Below are positions 9,046-17,793 of a stretch of 39,130 nt of DNA, piece after piece. Source of the stretch: Methanoculleus sp. (GTDB lineage Archaea; Halobacteriota; Methanomicrobia; Methanomicrobiales; Methanoculleaceae); contig NZ_JAJGBK010000018.1 of assembly GCF_020696975.1 (NCBI RefSeq), positions 1 through 39,130 of the forward strand. Reading direction: 5' to 3'. The number at the start of each line of letters is the position of its first letter. Within the stretch, counting starts at the first letter, position 1. Both the position numbers and the translations under genes were made by a program. A model generated the notes under the pieces. It saw nothing but the letters and a program-made list of their open reading frames with translations. It made no database searches and was not told the DNA's origin.

Positions 9046-10089
9046 TCAATACTGGAAATTAATGTTCCAAGTATGGCTTAATGTATGGTAAGTGGTCACT
9101 CCATTGTAGAATTGCCCGTCGGCCTGAAGATTCAAGATCCTGTACGTGCCACTGCTGTGCTGACTCACTGAACCGACGCTCCCTGGTTTCATACCCCCAG
9201 TCGTTTCTTTCGCATCATCGCTGTTGAAGAACATCTCCCACTTTGCTTTCTCGGTGCCGGTGCTGCTCCGGTCGTACGTCGTCACTTCGGGTTGATCGTA
9301 ACTCCAGCTCCATGTTGCTGAAGCGCCTCCGGTGCCCCCCGTTATGGATACCCCGATTGTTTGTGCTCCCGTTTTGGTTCCAAGAGGATCCCACTCATAC
9401 TGTTCGGGGCTACCGAATGTTCCTGCAGACCAATCGTGTAGCATAGTCCCCATTCTATTCTTCCATGAGATCATCTCAAAAGCCTGACAACCTGGCTCCA
9501 TGGCAAAAATCTGTTTGATCGCAAACCAATCTTTCGTACTGTCTCCATCGTTTGACAACTGTTGAAGTTCATAATTGTCCGTCACACCACCATACGGGCT
9601 CAGATAGTAGTCACCGGTCATGAGACCAATTGTTACCCACTCAGCACTAGCCAGTGCTCCTGCTTGCTCAGCAACCGCAAGTTGTGGATTGACAATATTT
9701 GAGTCATACCATTCCTGTGCTTTCTTCTGGATGATGGAAACAGATTCCTCATCACCTGCAAGCCCGACGTACTGAACAGGGACTCCACGAGCGTCAAGAG
9801 TGAAACCATAGGCCACGATTTCGGCGCCTTCGGGCACAACTGGATCGGCCAATACGAGTGGCGCATGACTTTCGGTCCTCTGTTGGGAGTTGTCGATCAC
9901 GCTCTCCCTCATCTCTTTCAAGTCACTCAGAGTTATCGGATTTGTGAAATCTGTAACTCTGTAAACTGACGAAACATCACTGTTTCCGGTGTTTATCGAC
10001 GTTGCGCTCACCGCAGGCGCCACAACCATACTCACCAGAAACACGGCGAGGAGCCCAGAAAGTGCCCGCATTCCAATCTTTCCATTCAT
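9046..10089 (-). CDS. Secreted protein of unknown function
   Basis: The ATG at 10089 is chosen because GGAGG lies 8 nt upstream and the product then starts with a clean signal peptide (GLLAVFLVSMVVAPAVSA). The longer frame from 10188 reads through the leader. The mature protein is about 320 residues, acidic and rich in Thr, Ser, Gly, Trp and Tyr, with a segment TWSWSYDQPEV and a C-terminus resembling beta-strands (TYRILNLQADGQF...HTWNINFQY). It has one lone Cys and no recognised domain. The gene is visibly AT-richer than its surroundings, which suggests transfer or fast change. It is expressed from a promoter of the same type as 12264 and 17392, with a leader of about 160 nt. Confidence 0.65.
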   Translation of the reverse strand: MNGKIGMRALSGLLAVFLVSMVVAPAVSATSINTGNSDVSSVYRVTDFTNPITLSDLKEMRESVIDNSQQRTESHAPLVLADPVVPEGAEIVAYGFTLDARGVPVQYVGLAGDEESVSIIQKKAQEWYDSNIVNPQLAVAEQAGALASAEWVTIGLMTGDYYLSPYGGVTDNYELQQLSNDGDSTKDWFAIKQIFAMEPGCQAFEMISWKNRMGTMLHDWSAGTFGSPEQYEWDPLGTKTGAQTIGVSITGGTGGASATWSWSYDQPEVTTYDRSSTGTEKAKWEMFFNSDDAKETTGGMKPGSVGSVSQHSSGTYRILNLQADGQFYNGVTTYHTLSHTWNINFQY

Positions 10090-12000: not shown

Positions 12001-12072
12001 TCTATATACCTTTTACGGCCATTGCAGCTCCGTGTCGCGCGATACGAAGCTTTTGTGGCCGTAAACTATATC
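12001..12072. promoter_or_regulatory. Symmetric divergent promoter with central palindrome
   Basis: Two TATA boxes face outward, minus-strand GGTATATAGA (12001-12010) and plus-strand AACTATATCC (12064-12073). The 64 bp from 12007 to 12070 form an imperfect inverted repeat centred at 12038/12039, with 23 of 32 positions matching between half-sites. Matches include TTTACGGCCA, AGCT and a core CGTGTCGC/GCGATACG with one mismatch. This serves 11972 on the left and 12264 on the right. Confidence 0.65.
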
Positions 12073-12099
12073 CCACCTTACTTCCTGACAAAACAGCGT

Positions 12100-12175
12100 G
12101 GATACCGCATGCGGTGTCCCGCCGGGGGCCGGGAACCCCGATCGCCATCGTATCCCGGCTCCCAAAAGCGTGCCC
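12100..12175 (+). promoter_or_regulatory. Conserved structured 5' leader element of the 12264 gene
   Basis: It starts about 30 nt after the TATA box, so close to the transcript start. Hairpin 1 is GGATAC/GTGTCC around CGCATGCG. Helix 2 pairs GGGGGCC (12124-12130) with GGCTCCC (12157-12163) and encloses GCCATCG (12144-12150). The order and most bases recur at 17300-17373. The function is unknown. Confidence 0.5.
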
Positions 12176-12263
12176 AGAGGGCAATAGGGCTGTTAGCGCT
12201 CGAAAGAGATAGCCGTTACGGTTCCGTGGTCCTCCCGGGTATGCACAAAGGAGGAATGGAACC

Positions 12264-12722
12264 ATGAAAACGAAATCTCTTTCCGGAATCAGCGCCCTCA
12301 TCGTGGCGCTGCTGGTCGTCGGCGCGATCTTCGTGCCGGCGGTGAGTGCAACGACTTCGGAGAACGCACGGGATGGCACTGCTGATACAACTACCCTGAA
12401 TCAGGTTGACAGGAGAGGCGATGATTTCCTGGACTGTTATGGATGGCTCACCAAGGAGACAAACTGGATCCGATATGGTGGATGGGCGTGGTGCAGTTAT
12501 CCGGCAGAGCGCCTAAACATCAAGGTCTCTCTCCGTGACCGGGCCACTGATCAGGATCTGGGCTACACCGCTTACTCGGGCGCTAACCTTGATTACATCG
12601 AAGCGCAGGATAATCTTGAAGTGCAACCACCTGCCGGAAGTTATTATACCCACACCCGGGCATGGAGTGCAGGGCCGTCTCACGACGTATTACATAACTC
12701 TCCCACAATCACCTGGCCATGA
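12264..12722 (+). CDS. Small secreted protein of unknown function
   Basis: 152 residues. The signal peptide is about residues 1-29 (LIVALLVVGAIFVPAVSA). The mature region is about 120 residues, rich in Trp, Tyr, Asp and Arg, with two cysteines placed to form a disulfide (FLDCYGWL and WAWCSYP). A segment LNIKVSLRDRATDQDLGYTAYSG looks like beta-structure. No family is recognised. A very strong AAAGGAGG lies 9 nt before the ATG, and a long structured leader (12100-12263) precedes it. A T6 run at 12759 separates it from the PepSY-like gene, so it may be the most abundant product of the unit. Confidence 0.65.
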   Translation: MKTKSLSGISALIVALLVVGAIFVPAVSATTSENARDGTADTTTLNQVDRRGDDFLDCYGWLTKETNWIRYGGWAWCSYPAERLNIKVSLRDRATDQDLGYTAYSGANLDYIEAQDNLEVQPPAGSYYTHTRAWSAGPSHDVLHNSPTITWP

Positions 12723-12758
12723 GGGAGCATGCTTATGAAAGAGACGGCCAATCTCCCC

Positions 12759-12764
12759 TTTTTT
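12759..12764 (+). terminator. Possible U-tract terminator/attenuator after the 12264 gene
   Basis: CCCC followed by six T lies 37 bp after the stop codon of 12264-12722 and 33 bp before the next start. Archaeal polymerase can stop at U-tracts alone. Partial read-through into the downstream pair is plausible. Confidence 0.35.
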
Positions 12765-12796
12765 CTCAGGCCATTCCGCAGCTCAGGAGTTCTACC

Positions 12797-13726
12797 ATGA
12801 CAAACAAACTCACAGGCATTCTTCTCATTCTCTGCATAACGGGGGTTCTCATCGTCGCTGGTGTCTGGTTTTCCGTGACCGCCGCCGACCCTCTGCCGCC
12901 GGAACCGCCGCTCTCCCCCACCCCCGGGACGACGCCGACCGGTGACGGCATCACCGAGGCGGAAGCAAAGACGATCGCCGCTGCCGCCCTCCCTGATATC
13001 GTCCGGGCGGAGACCGCGAGGGTCCGGCTCGAACGCGGCCTCTTCGACGTCTCCGACTCCAACGCCACCCGGCAGGCCCAGGTCCGGGTCGATGCCCGGA
13101 CCGGAGAGATAACCGGCTTTGTCGTCCACGTTCCGGCCCTGGCAGGCCGACCGGCCGAGCCAGTCCTCACGATGGAGGAAACGTACGGGATCGCGGAGGA
13201 GTTCCTCGCCGACCGGGGCGAGACTGCCGACCTCGCGGCCGCGGTCGGAAAGTACTACACCCCCCACAAAAACGAGCGAACCGGCGAAACGGTGGCCGGG
13301 TACTACGGTGTCGCCCTCCATCGCTCCATCAGGGGTATCCCCTGTGCCTGGAATGGCTGTTGGATTGACGTTGACGCGGTCACCGGCGAGATCCGCCGTT
13401 ACGATCGGTTCTGGGACCTCGACGCGGCGCGGTGTACGGCCGATACCGAACCCGCGATCACCGCAGAGGAGGCGGAGGAGAGTGCCAGGGGCTACATCCA
13501 GGACACGTACGGGGAGCTTTCCGGACTTACCTTCCGCTCCGCGACGCTCGTCTGGGCCGACAACTCCGCCCCGGCGACGGGTGAGGTCCCGCTCGCGTGG
13601 AAGGTCTCGTTCGACGACGACTACTACCGGTCGCTGGGAACGCTGCTCACCGCCGCTGTCTTCGTCGACGCCCGGACCGGGGAAGTCCTTTCCTGCGACT
13701 ACTACCGCCGCCCCGGGGCTGCCTGA
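12797..13726 (+). CDS. PepSY-like exported/anchored protein, copy 1
   Basis: The ATG at 12797 is preferred (CAGGAG about 9 nt upstream, and the product then begins with the membrane helix LTGILLILCITGVLIVAGVWF). The frame extends back to 12719 but those residues have no signal character. The 309-residue product has repeated PepSY-type units: EAEAKTIAAAALPD...ARVRLERG, then VRVDARTGEITGF near 100, WIDVDAVTGEIRRYDRFW near 200, and FVDARTGEVLSCDYY at the end. PepSY domains occur outside the membrane and are linked to protease inhibition or metal and redox binding. It is a clear paralog of 15051-16049 and is followed 9 bp later by a permease. Confidence 0.75.
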   Translation: MTNKLTGILLILCITGVLIVAGVWFSVTAADPLPPEPPLSPTPGTTPTGDGITEAEAKTIAAAALPDIVRAETARVRLERGLFDVSDSNATRQAQVRVDARTGEITGFVVHVPALAGRPAEPVLTMEETYGIAEEFLADRGETADLAAAVGKYYTPHKNERTGETVAGYYGVALHRSIRGIPCAWNGCWIDVDAVTGEIRRYDRFWDLDAARCTADTEPAITAEEAEESARGYIQDTYGELSGLTFRSATLVWADNSAPATGEVPLAWKVSFDDDYYRSLGTLLTAAVFVDARTGEVLSCDYYRRPGAA

Positions 13727-13735
13727 GGAGGGAGC

Positions 13736-14752
13736 ATGGAAGTCGGGCGCATCTTCACCATCGCCGGGAAGGAGTTTGCCGATGCCCTGCGGGGCAGAAA
13801 GTTCCTCCTCATCTTGGGCATCTTCCTCGCCATCGCGTTTGTCGGGGCGATGCTGGGACTTCAGAATTACGCCTCGAATCTTGAGATCTACACGAAGGCT
13901 TTGAGGCTGGGAGCCGATTTCTCGCCTCACTGGAGTATCCGGCCGACGATCCTCTACGTCTTCATGCGGATGGGAGAGACTGTCTCGATCCTTGGTGCAG
14001 TGCTCGGGATCGCCATGGGGTTCGACCTCATCTCCGGTGAGCGGGAGGAAGGATCCTTAAAGGTGCTCCTCGCCCGGCCGGTCTTCCGGGACGAGATCAT
14101 CACCGGCAAGGTCCTCGGCGGCGCGATGATCCTTGCGCTTGCGACCGGCCTTGCCCTCACGATCACCCTCGCCCTCCTCCTCATGGCCGGCCACCTGCCG
14201 CTCCTCTGGGAGTTCTGGCTGATCCTCGTCTTTGGGGCGGTCACGTTCCTTTACCTGTTCGGCTGCTTCGGGATCGGGCTTGCGATGTCGGCCGTCTCCC
14301 GCCGGAGCGGGGAAGCACTCCTCTTCTCCCTCTCGGCCTTCTTCATCCTCTCGCTCGTCGTTCCGGCCGCCGGAGCGGCCGTCGCCGATCTGGTCGTCGG
14401 GAAGACTCCGGAAGCGCCGCAGATCGTCGACGAGAAAGACCTGGATCTCTGGTATGCCTACCAGGAAGAATTCGATCAGCACTTCACCCTGCGAGCGAGT
14501 ATCGTCCAGGTGGCAAACCTCTTCTCACCGGAGTGGAATTACAAGGAGATCACGCAAGCGGTCACCAAACCCAACTTCTACCTGATCACGCACGGCCCTG
14601 CCGACGACTCCTTCTACTACCCGGCCGACGCGGAGCCGGAGTTCGGTGTGATCCTCGGCTACCTCTGGACCAGTATCGTCGCCCTCCTGCTCATCCCTGT
14701 TCTTTTCCTCGGTTTTGCCTATGCCAGGTTCCTCCGAATCGACCTCCGATGA
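13736..14752 (+). CDS. ABC-2 type permease, copy 1
   Basis: 338 residues with about six membrane helices. The first follows the family opening AGKEFADALRGRKFLLILGIF. A large outside loop lies before helix 2, then the conserved MGFDLISGEREEGSLKVLLARPVFRDEIITGK segment that marks ABC-2/NosY-like permeases, four more helices, and an outside loop (about 220-300) before a final helix ending YARFLRIDLR. Such permeases normally pair with an ABC ATPase, but none is adjacent. GGAGG lies 5 nt before the ATG. It is a paralog of 16070-17098. Confidence 0.85.
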   Translation: MEVGRIFTIAGKEFADALRGRKFLLILGIFLAIAFVGAMLGLQNYASNLEIYTKALRLGADFSPHWSIRPTILYVFMRMGETVSILGAVLGIAMGFDLISGEREEGSLKVLLARPVFRDEIITGKVLGGAMILALATGLALTITLALLLMAGHLPLLWEFWLILVFGAVTFLYLFGCFGIGLAMSAVSRRSGEALLFSLSAFFILSLVVPAAGAAVADLVVGKTPEAPQIVDEKDLDLWYAYQEEFDQHFTLRASIVQVANLFSPEWNYKEITQAVTKPNFYLITHGPADDSFYYPADAEPEFGVILGYLWTSIVALLLIPVLFLGFAYARFLRIDLR

Positions 14753-14967: not shown

Positions 14968-15018
14968 AGCCTTCGAATGCCCGGATAAATCGGTGTTTGT
15001 CACAGAAAAGGTATATGA
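14968..15018 (+). promoter_or_regulatory. Promoter of the second PepSY/permease pair
   Basis: CAGAAAAGGTATATG holds a BRE/TATA at about 15007-15016, 35-40 bp before the ATG at 15051. The 52 bp align without gaps to 17226-17277, and the TATA box is 43 bp from the shared AGCCTTCGA in both. Confidence 0.65.
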
Positions 15019-15050
15019 GAGAACGTCGACGCCTCGATTAGGAAAAGTGC

Positions 15051-16049
15051 ATGAGTAACATGACTCTCAACAAAACCAGTTGCACCCTCGTGACGGTGCT
15101 TCTCCTCCTGGCCTGTGCGGCAGCATCGGCGGGGTGTACCGGGACGAATGCGGATGAAAACGGATCGGCTGCACCGACGTCGCCGGAAGCGACAGCGTCA
15201 CCCGGGGCGACACCGGCCCAACCGTCGTCAGGCGGCTTGCTCGGTGAGGAAGAAGCGCGTTCGCTTGCCGTGGCCGCACTGGAGCGGGAGATGCCCGGAA
15301 TTCGGATCAAACGGGTGGTTGCCGAGCCGTACGATGTGCAGACCTATGGCGACGTCTGGCGGTTCCGGGTGAAAGCGGAAGACGACCCCGACCTGGAAGG
15401 CGATATCAGTGTATGGATCGATGCCGCCGACGGGGAGATGGTGTACTTCCTGGATGGCCGCGACTATTATCGGTCCGCCGATCCCGCGATCACGATCGAC
15501 GAGGCGGAAGGGATTGCCGAAACATATCTCCGGGACCGAAACGAGGGTTTGGATGTCGTGAAAATCGCCGCTGTACTCTCGACGCTGGATACGCCGCTCG
15601 GGAACCGGACCGGACCGTATCATTTCGCGTATCGGCGCTCGATCGACGGCGTTCTCTGCCTGTATGACGGAATCGTCCTTGATATCGATTCGATCGACGG
15701 CCGCGTTGTTTCCTATCATAAAGCCTGGAGAGTATCGGACAACGACACCATGACCGATCCGGCCCCTTCGATCACCAAGGACGCGGCGCAAGACCGGGTT
15801 CTGGCGTATCTCAATGCCACGTGCGGCACTGACCCCGGCGACATCGCCGTCCGATCGACCGGGTTGTTGTGGTACGATCTGGCTGCACAGCACCGCCGGT
15901 CACAAGACCCGGTTACGGTGCCTCTTGCCTGGCGCGTCGAATTCGATGACGAGTGGTACCGGTCGCAGGATCCGCCGCGAACGGCCACGTTATGGATCGA
16001 CGCACATTCGGGGGAGGTTCTTAGTGCTGCATATTATAGCTGCATATAA
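15051..16049 (+). CDS. PepSY-like lipoprotein, copy 2
   Basis: 332 residues. The signal sequence ends in a lipobox-like ASAGC (Cys about residue 29), followed by a Thr/Ser/Pro-rich linker typical of surface lipoproteins. Then come the same units as copy 1: EEEARSLAVAALEREMPGI, VWIDAADGEMVYFLDGRDYY, IVLDIDSIDGRVVSYHKAW, and the closing PLAWRVEFDDEWYRSQ...WIDAHSGEVLSAAYY. Copy 1 has a plain membrane helix where this one has a lipobox. GGA lies 7 nt before the ATG. It lies 20 bp before the second permease. Confidence 0.8.
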   Translation: MSNMTLNKTSCTLVTVLLLLACAAASAGCTGTNADENGSAAPTSPEATASPGATPAQPSSGGLLGEEEARSLAVAALEREMPGIRIKRVVAEPYDVQTYGDVWRFRVKAEDDPDLEGDISVWIDAADGEMVYFLDGRDYYRSADPAITIDEAEGIAETYLRDRNEGLDVVKIAAVLSTLDTPLGNRTGPYHFAYRRSIDGVLCLYDGIVLDIDSIDGRVVSYHKAWRVSDNDTMTDPAPSITKDAAQDRVLAYLNATCGTDPGDIAVRSTGLLWYDLAAQHRRSQDPVTVPLAWRVEFDDEWYRSQDPPRTATLWIDAHSGEVLSAAYYSCI

Positions 16050-16069
16050 CAACCTGAGGAGGTAGTCCG

Positions 16070-17098
16070 GTGGAACACGACGGGACGACAGACCGGGTAT
16101 CCGGCCCGCACCGCCTGCTCTTCGTGGCAGGGAAAGAGTTTGCCGACCACCTATCGAGCCGGCGGTTCATCCTTGTCCTTATCATCTTCCTGATCTTCTG
16201 CTCCGTCTCCCTCTTTGAGGGCGTCGAGACATACAGCGCGAAGCTTGCGGCATACTCGGGCGCTACGGCCGGCTGGGTGCCGCCGGTGAAGCCCTCCATC
16301 CTTGACGTCTTCAGCACCCTCTCCTCGCAGGTCAGGGACTACGGCCCGCTGCTCGCAATCGCGATCGGGTTCGACCTGGTCACACGGGAACGCTGGTCGG
16401 GCTCGCTCAAAACCCTCCTCTCCCGCCCGGTCTTTCGGGACGAGATCATCACCGGGAAAGCGATCGGGGGATTCGCCGCCCTGGCGCTGGCGATGAGCAT
16501 CGCGGTTCTCATCGCGCTCGCCCTGCTCCTGCTCTCTGCAATCGTCCCTTCGCCTGCCGAACTCGGTGCGATCCTGGTCTTCTGGTTCGTTTCGCTGGTG
16601 TACCTCTTCACGTTCTTCTCGGTCGCTCTCTTCGCCTCGTCGGTCGTTGCCGAGAGTGGGAGCGCTCTTGTCTGGTCTCTGGTCGCTATCTTCGTTTTCT
16701 CCTCCATCGTACCGATGGCCGGTGGCATCCTTACCAGTGCGACTGCCGGAACGCCTCCGGTTGCGGTGAATACGAGCGACCCGCACTTCACCGAAGAGGT
16801 GTGGCTGCAATACCGGGAAGAGCTGCGATCCTTCGAAGAGCACCGGAGCCGTATCGCAATGACCGTCAATCTGCTCTCGCCGCAAAGGAATTACCTGGAA
16901 CTCTCGGTGGCGATCACCTCCCCATGGGTCTCGATGTGGGTCATCCCCGATCCCTTCGCCTTGCGGACAGAGGTCCCGCTCCCCGATCTTCCCGGCCTGA
17001 TTGCTCTCGTCTGGCAGCCGATCGTCGCCATGCTTGCGTTTCCGGCGGTCTTCTTCGGAGCGGCATACGCTCGATTCATGCGGATGGATCTCCGATGA
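16070..17098 (+). CDS. ABC-2 type permease, copy 2
   Basis: 342 residues from a GTG with GAGGAGG 7 nt upstream. The organisation equals copy 1: AGKEFADHLSSRRFILVLIIF at the first helix, IGFDLVTRERWSGSLKTLL then SRPVFRDEIITGK, four helices, an outside loop (about 215-300) and a final helix ending YARFMRMDLR. Shared stretches such as RPVFRDEIITGK show duplication of the gene pair. As with copy 1 there is no neighbouring ATPase. Confidence 0.85.
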   Translation: MEHDGTTDRVSGPHRLLFVAGKEFADHLSSRRFILVLIIFLIFCSVSLFEGVETYSAKLAAYSGATAGWVPPVKPSILDVFSTLSSQVRDYGPLLAIAIGFDLVTRERWSGSLKTLLSRPVFRDEIITGKAIGGFAALALAMSIAVLIALALLLLSAIVPSPAELGAILVFWFVSLVYLFTFFSVALFASSVVAESGSALVWSLVAIFVFSSIVPMAGGILTSATAGTPPVAVNTSDPHFTEEVWLQYREELRSFEEHRSRIAMTVNLLSPQRNYLELSVAITSPWVSMWVIPDPFALRTEVPLPDLPGLIALVWQPIVAMLAFPAVFFGAAYARFMRMDLR

Positions 17099-17225: not shown

Positions 17226-17277
17226 AGCCTTCGACTGCCCCGATGTTTCGATGATCGACACAGAAACGGTATAAAGA
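17226..17277 (+). promoter_or_regulatory. Promoter of the 17392 gene
   Basis: CAGAAACGGTATAAAG has its TATA at about 17269-17276. The preceding 43 bp align base for base with the promoter at 14968-15018. Confidence 0.65.
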
Positions 17278-17299
17278 TGGACAACGGACTCTCCATCGG

Positions 17300-17373
17300 G
17301 GATACCCCATGCAGTATCCCGCGGGGGCCGGGGCGCTCGATGCCATCGTGTTTTGGCTCCCGCGGCATGCTAA
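17300..17373 (+). promoter_or_regulatory. Conserved structured 5' leader element of the 17392 gene
   Basis: It begins about 25 nt after the TATA box. Hairpin 1 is GGATAC/GTATCC around CCCATGCA. Helix 2 pairs GCGGGGGCC (17321-17329) with GGCTCCCGC (17355-17363) and encloses GCCATCG (17342-17348). It matches the element at 12100-12175 along its whole length, with a G-U to A-U change that keeps a pair. Confidence 0.5.
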
Positions 17374-17391
17374 TCAAAGGTGTATCAGGTT

Positions 17392-17793
17392 ATGAATCGT
17401 GTAAAATCGTTGACCGTCGGTCTCGTAATCCTGGCTTTCATCGTTGGAGTCGGGGTTGGCTATCTCCTTGCAGCACAGGGCGAGCCCGCCACGGCAGGGG
17501 CTGCATGCCCGGAGAGGATCACGTCGCGCGACGCATTGACCGTGGCGCTCCATGACCCGGAGGTCGTCGGGCTGCTGGGCAACAAGAGCATCGATACGAT
17601 CGCATTTTCAAAGGGCTCCTATCCTGAGAGGAATGTGAACTACACCCAGGTTCTCTTTCGCCTCGGGGACCCGGACCCCAACGACCGCATGACCGCCCCG
17701 ATGATCGTCGTCCAGGTCAACGAGTCATGCATGGTCTACTCCGTCTACAAGACGTACCCGTCGTATATCCCTGAGACTCGCACGGAGGCATAA
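17392..17793 (+). CDS. Small membrane-anchored/exported protein of unknown function
   Basis: 133 residues from the ATG at 17392, with AAAGGTG 9 nt upstream; a GTG at 17380 would add four residues. One N-terminal membrane helix (LTVGLVILAFIVGVGVGYLLAA) is followed by an outside domain of about 105 residues with Cys in AACPER and NESCMVY. The middle has HDPEVVGLLGNKSIDTIAFSKGSY and APMIVVQVNES, suggesting alternating helix and strand. No family is recognised. It is expressed alone behind a leader related to that of 12264. Confidence 0.6.
   Translation: MNRVKSLTVGLVILAFIVGVGVGYLLAAQGEPATAGAACPERITSRDALTVALHDPEVVGLLGNKSIDTIAFSKGSYPERNVNYTQVLFRLGDPDPNDRMTAPMIVVQVNESCMVYSVYKTYPSYIPETRTEA

Follow-up and report, generated by a model that had tools for sequence, protein, structure and literature searches.

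We describe a conserved, structured leader RNA family that precedes genes for mostly secreted proteins in Methanoculleus and Methanofollis; that the family is real is hardly in doubt. It is previously uncatalogued and is absent from Rfam release 15. The full leader, about 150 nt, consists of two hairpins, P1 and P2, followed by a long hairpin, P3. Its most likely role is the control of translation through P3, with a static leader as the main rival. Three copies, A, B, and C, lie in the window, i.e., the whole 39,130-nt stretch of Methanoculleus DNA that was analyzed.

Leader copies in the window

Copies A and B begin at 12100 and 17300 on the plus strand. They are identical at 51 of 62 positions (82%) through P2 and at 56 of 69 over the ranges 12100–12175 and 17300–17373. 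Their alignment score is 47; none of 2000 dinucleotide shuffles exceeds 21. A first-pass annotation of this DNA had aligned the first 75 nt or so at about 70% identity; the alignment stands, and the identity is higher than estimated. Similarity is only at chance level in the 150-nt upstream flanks and in the 300 nt downstream, and the proteins encoded downstream are not similar to each other. Therefore, the two copies do not stem from a DNA segment duplicated recently; such duplication, which the annotation had named as refuting its proposal, is also excluded by the divergent copies that a second archaeal family carries.

P1 of copy A is GGATACCG-CATG-CGGTGTCC (12100–12119), and P1 of copy B is GGATAC/GTATCC (17300–17319). 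The wobble-preserving change reported for the first hairpin, GGATACCG/CGGTGTCC versus GGATAC/GTATCC, is thus found where it had been placed. P2 of copy A (12124–12163) is of the alpha type, GGGGGCCGGG...CCCGGCTCCC with inner CGAT/ATCG, and P2 of copy B occupies 17321–17363. This second helix had been recognized in both copies, as had an internal GCCATCG that both contain, but the helix is longer than described (10 bp) and carries wobble exchanges in addition to those of P1 (GGG/CCC versus GGG/TTT).

Two covariance models of the alpha leader were used in searches: R1, made from 14 copies, and R2, which adds copies from the other family. Both were built with an older structure, P3/P4, for the 3′ part. 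From the reading of related copies found across the genus, the conserved stretch of about 150 nt reaches the Shine-Dalgarno sequence. Copy A is the full-length form, running from 12098 to 12263, up to the start codon at 12264 (R2 match 12098–12240, E 8e-41). The interval first assigned to the element, 12100–12175, was right for P1 and P2; P3 was missed. P3 of copy A (12168–12244) is made of the 5′ strand GCGTGCCCAGAGG (12168–12180), a conserved core (12182–12229), and the 3′ strand CCTCCCGGGTATGC (12231–12244). An anti-Shine-Dalgarno, TCCTCC (12230–12235), pairs in the predicted lowest-energy fold with the Shine-Dalgarno AAAGGAGGAA (12247–12256). Behind copy A, the plus-strand gene at 12264–12722 encodes a 152-aa secreted protein of unknown function with the signal peptide MKTKSLSGISALIVALLVVGAIFVPAVSA. 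Copy B is a shortened alpha-type leader with P1 and P2 only and no P3 (R1 match 17298–17391; R2 E 6e-11); another Methanoculleus leader, L003, is shortened likewise. The plus-strand gene behind copy B (17392–17793) encodes a 133-aa protein with an N-terminal hydrophobic anchor and no known family. Both copies therefore precede small exported or anchored proteins of unknown function, as annotated.

Copy C, on the minus strand (10253–10094), has a beta-type P3 (see below) and was found by a search for the P3 pattern; its fold z score is −2.9. It includes P1 (10253–10228), a P2 of its own type (10225–10176), and a P3 with the 5′ strand GCCCGGAGGCA (10173–10163) and the 3′ strand TGCCTCCGGGAG (10119–10108). 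The Shine-Dalgarno CGGAGG follows within 10103–10094, ahead of a gene (9046–10089, minus strand) for a 347-aa secreted protein, MNGKIGMRALSGLL..., for which only a sub-threshold DUF2749 match was obtained. Against R3, the model of the beta P1–P2 part, copy C scores 16.5 bits (E 0.12), weak alone because its P2 is yet another type; its P3 is typical. The first-pass annotation had noticed neither this third copy nor P3, its relation to the Shine-Dalgarno sequence, or the beta type.

Copies A and B begin about 30 nt after TATA-like boxes, ACTATATCC (12065–12073) and GGTATAAAG (17268–17276), a spacing that makes a location at the transcript 5′ end plausible. That the leader is transcribed within the mRNA is plausible on this spacing only, as there are no RNA data. 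The copy A promoter (12013–12073, plus strand) has an inverted repeat, TTACGGCCA (12013–12021) and TGGCCGTAA (12056–12064), with the TATA-like box directly after it. The same arrangement, TTACGGCCA/TGGCCGTAA plus ACTATAT, precedes some other leaders, including L109 and L111, and the repeat recurs before several leader genes in other Methanoculleus. It looks like the binding site of an unknown regulator. The copy B promoter (17259–17276, plus strand) instead has CACAGAA (17259–17265) ahead of its TATA-like box, a motif combination that precedes most Methanoculleus leaders. Two unrelated promoter types before the same leader indicate that conservation and function lie at the RNA level.

A CACAGAA-TATA promoter without a leader (14968–15050, plus strand) lies before the PepSY-like gene at 15051, a relative of which, in a different Methanoculleus (L064), follows a full leader. 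The segments 12719–14752 and 15051–17098 are two tandem paralogous units, each a PepSY-like gene plus an ABC-2-type permease gene; these names come from reading the sequences, without a family search. Relatives of the PepSY-like gene in other genomes (L064, L124) bear the leader. Elsewhere in the window there are a CRISPR array (17–782) with 12 repeat copies containing GTCGTGCCTCACGCAGGCACGTGGATTGAAAT, and, by the contig end (39037–39112), a 38-nt stretch duplicated perfectly in tandem, possibly an assembly or array edge. The window's own genome has more alpha or beta leaders at G000:C22:47611-47750, G000:C11:5482-5625, G000:C7:133218-133312, G000:C7:140078-140156, G000:C7:147463-147557, and G000:C7:159513-159608.

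Covariation, distribution, and target genes

Compensatory changes beyond shuffled and slid controls were the criterion for a structured cis-acting leader, and they are present. When 34 alpha copies were aligned by fitting to the model, 17 of 36 pairs displayed two-sided changes, and the two-sided cells numbered 64, versus 22 after shuffling and 3–25 with slid partners. A sequence-only alignment of Methanofollis copies alone gave 46 such cells versus 19.5 in the control, the structure itself being derived from that alignment. RNAalifold, run per genus on Methanoculleus and Methanofollis, returned the same P1, P2, and inner part of a single long P3. Its outer stem was recovered in the Methanoculleus run and, on a second alignment, in Methanofollis, where CTGGAAGGC/GCCTTCCAG in L073 versus CCCGGAGGC/GCCTTCGGG in L074 are clear paired changes. 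P3 outer strands fit their own partners better than swapped ones, as 0 of 5000 permutations reached the real value.

These per-genus folds replaced an earlier division of the 3′ part into two hairpins, P3 and P4, by one long P3. The pairs of the former P4 (GGCTGTT/GATAGCC) are largely preserved, show no two-sided change, and remain a possible alternative fold. A long-range pairing of P1 from the first RNAalifold run was set aside, as L008 and L022 carry compensatory changes inside P1. In L107 (G022:C6:292862-293023), the leader of a near-identical copy A homologue, the P3 5′ strand is duplicated internally in tandem (AAAAGCGTGCCCAGAGGGC twice).

The alpha leader was found by R1 in 29 of 35 Methanoculleus genomes, with up to 10 copies each; a phylum-wide sample of 393 genomes added one other family. 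With R2, the count was 31 of 35 Methanoculleus genomes, with up to 11 copies each, plus nine genomes of Methanofollis, a different family, in a set of 232 genomes from 40 genera of the order. On the phylum sample, R2 gave just two further marginal matches; these weak ones outside both genera (G228, G352) were left as chance. An R1 match in G344 (L077) looks like coding sequence. A viral origin was rejected, viral contigs giving no match. Leaders lie on the coding strand at a constant position before genes, most start codons being about 155–190 nt from P1. No Rfam release 15 family was matched at curated or relaxed thresholds, the gathering score not being reached, and no description of such a leader was found in the open-access papers searched, which leave most subscription journals uncovered.

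A second type, beta, was met via homologues of one target protein that have no alpha leader. In the beta leader, P1 is followed by a P2 unrelated to that of alpha (GCGGGGNCGCCCATCCACGGTTGACGCCCGGATGACGCACCCCGC) and by a P3 that keeps the alpha outer stem (GCCCGGAGGCA/TGCCTCCGGG) around another interior. A fitted alignment of this type has 68 two-sided cells versus 26 after shuffling. R3 located it in 34 of 231 genomes, spread over at least six genera and at least three families, with up to 11 copies per genome. L200, L201, and L219 are chimeras of beta P2 and alpha P3. The pattern of P3 plus Shine-Dalgarno gave more than 100 matches in 48 of 204 genomes, versus about 17 in a reversed control, by which some of the matches are chance ones inside genes.

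The genes downstream encode mostly secreted proteins from many unrelated families. By a crude test, 70 of the 94 called products have a signal peptide; the rest include miscalled or decayed frames. Almost no target protein belongs to a Pfam or NCBIfam family; the targets include one C39-like peptidase. Four protein groups stand behind the leader in both Methanoculleus and Methanofollis: the family of the 12264 protein (44–47% identity across genera), L044/L075 (51%), L053/L090 (40%), and L096/L085 (38%). The 12264 protein has 7 full-length homologues in 231 genomes of the order, all 7 with the leader (contig ends cut into two of them). To summarize, the first-pass suggestion of a new cis-acting RNA, to be pursued through methanogen homologues, covarying pairs, and a common set of downstream genes, is supported on each of these points.

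Among the targets, 49 similar signal peptides head 17 mature families that are unrelated to one another; promoter, leader, and signal peptide thus act as a cassette would. Several leader–signal-peptide combinations have clearly been shuffled among unrelated genes. This is what favors conservation at the DNA level only, i.e., a promoter and signal-peptide cassette copied by recombination with the hairpins as a by-product. We regard that explanation as scarcely tenable. It is largely refuted by the compensatory changes in P1, P2, and P3, and it is at odds with two unrelated promoter types ahead of the same leader and with the same structure in two archaeal families that share few identical P2 bases.

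P3, the Shine-Dalgarno sequence, and the role of the leader

The Shine-Dalgarno sequence is copied in the P3 5′ strand as CCGGAGG; CCTCC is in the 3′ strand, and the true Shine-Dalgarno lies shortly downstream. CCTCC can therefore pair with either the 5′ look-alike or the true site. In copy A, the 5′ strand reads CCAGAGG, and the predicted folds are −79.0 kcal/mol with the Shine-Dalgarno paired versus −75.7 kcal/mol with P3 formed, a gap of 3.3. For many or most other copies, the predictions favor P3 by a wide margin and leave the Shine-Dalgarno unpaired with the anti-Shine-Dalgarno. In a permutation test of own against swapped anti-Shine-Dalgarno:Shine-Dalgarno pairs, 90 of 2000 permutations overall and 29 of 2000 for Methanoculleus reached the real value, which is suggestive only; in the same test, own pairs in Methanofollis were no better than swapped ones. 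As a general, proven feature, the pairing is unsupported beyond Methanoculleus. Thus, the switch is a proposal, not a result.

We lean mildly towards this proposal, that the leader RNA controls translation of secreted-protein genes in Methanomicrobiales through P3. The leader would be transcribed together with the mRNA. When P3 forms, the true Shine-Dalgarno would be free and the gene translated; when P3 is open or prevented, CCTCC would pair with the true Shine-Dalgarno and translation would be off. A small molecule, ion, or protein acting at the conserved P3 core plus P1/P2 may tip the balance. Both states are inferred, and the trigger is unidentified. Against a switch, copy B lacks P3, and no ligand, expression data, or transcript ends stand behind it.

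The main rival dispenses with switching: the hairpins would stabilize the mRNA, bind a protein, or bring the mRNA to the membrane or Sec machinery, and secretion, common to the targets, would be the reason for the leader. What the targets share is mainly the signal peptide, which fits a signal for "where" better than a metabolic one for "when", and most predicted folds have a very stable P3. A static leader leaves unexplained, however, a GGAGG/CCTCC P3 stem beside a GGAGG Shine-Dalgarno, kept in alpha and beta although P2 and the inner P3 are replaced. We judge it unlikely, while taking it seriously. We give very little credence to an upstream mini-ORF in P3 (GTG CCC GGA GGG CAA TAG, V/M-P-G-G-Q-stop), the translation of which would open or close P3 as in peptide-based attenuation. 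Among the 56 Methanoculleus alpha copies, 53 do have a start codon immediately ahead of CCCGGAGG, and in 36 of these 53 a stop follows within 8 codons. However, the start codon is present in only 2 of 12 Methanofollis copies, none of the 12 with an early stop; the early stop occurs in 1 of 22 beta-pattern copies, and no Shine-Dalgarno is seen ahead of the start. The frame was rejected as not conserved in Methanofollis.

Control of translation through P3 admits a wider version, which we offer as a tentative conjecture, more apt to fail than to hold. It places alpha, beta, and other types in a modular superfamily of archaeal translational switches, in which the constant, Shine-Dalgarno-mimicking outer stem of P3 is the expression platform and the P2 and inner-P3 parts are interchangeable sensor modules. 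Such switches would have spread, together with promoter and signal peptide, to new secreted-protein genes, bringing those genes under one control.

Relation to known leader RNAs

Archaea have few well-supported leader RNA families, most of which were discovered first in bacteria. Within the genomes tested, the present leader occurs only in methanogens of one order; it is modular and, in most Methanoculleus, multicopy. It flags a large set of secreted proteins whose function is unknown and offers a direct handle on what these methanogens secrete and when, as well as an archaeal system for testing translational control by leader RNA.

Like ribosomal-protein and other protein-binding leaders, it is short and structured and may act on translation; unlike ribosomal-protein leaders, it precedes many unrelated genes rather than ribosomal proteins or a single autoregulated gene. 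The likeness to translational riboswitches with Shine-Dalgarno sequestration extends to the 5′ position, the structured upstream domain, the several copies per genome, and a predicted choice of partners for the anti-Shine-Dalgarno, an upstream strand or the Shine-Dalgarno itself. It differs from them in having no known ligand or Rfam match, in targeting secreted proteins rather than a metabolic pathway, and in its replaceable P2 and inner-P3 modules. GEMM riboswitches, which respond to cyclic dinucleotides, are found many times in one genome, in front of unrelated genes, frequently ones for extracellular proteins. The leader has no sequence or Rfam match to them and is restricted to methanogens of one order, but it resembles them in standing, in many copies per genome, before unrelated genes that often encode extracellular proteins.
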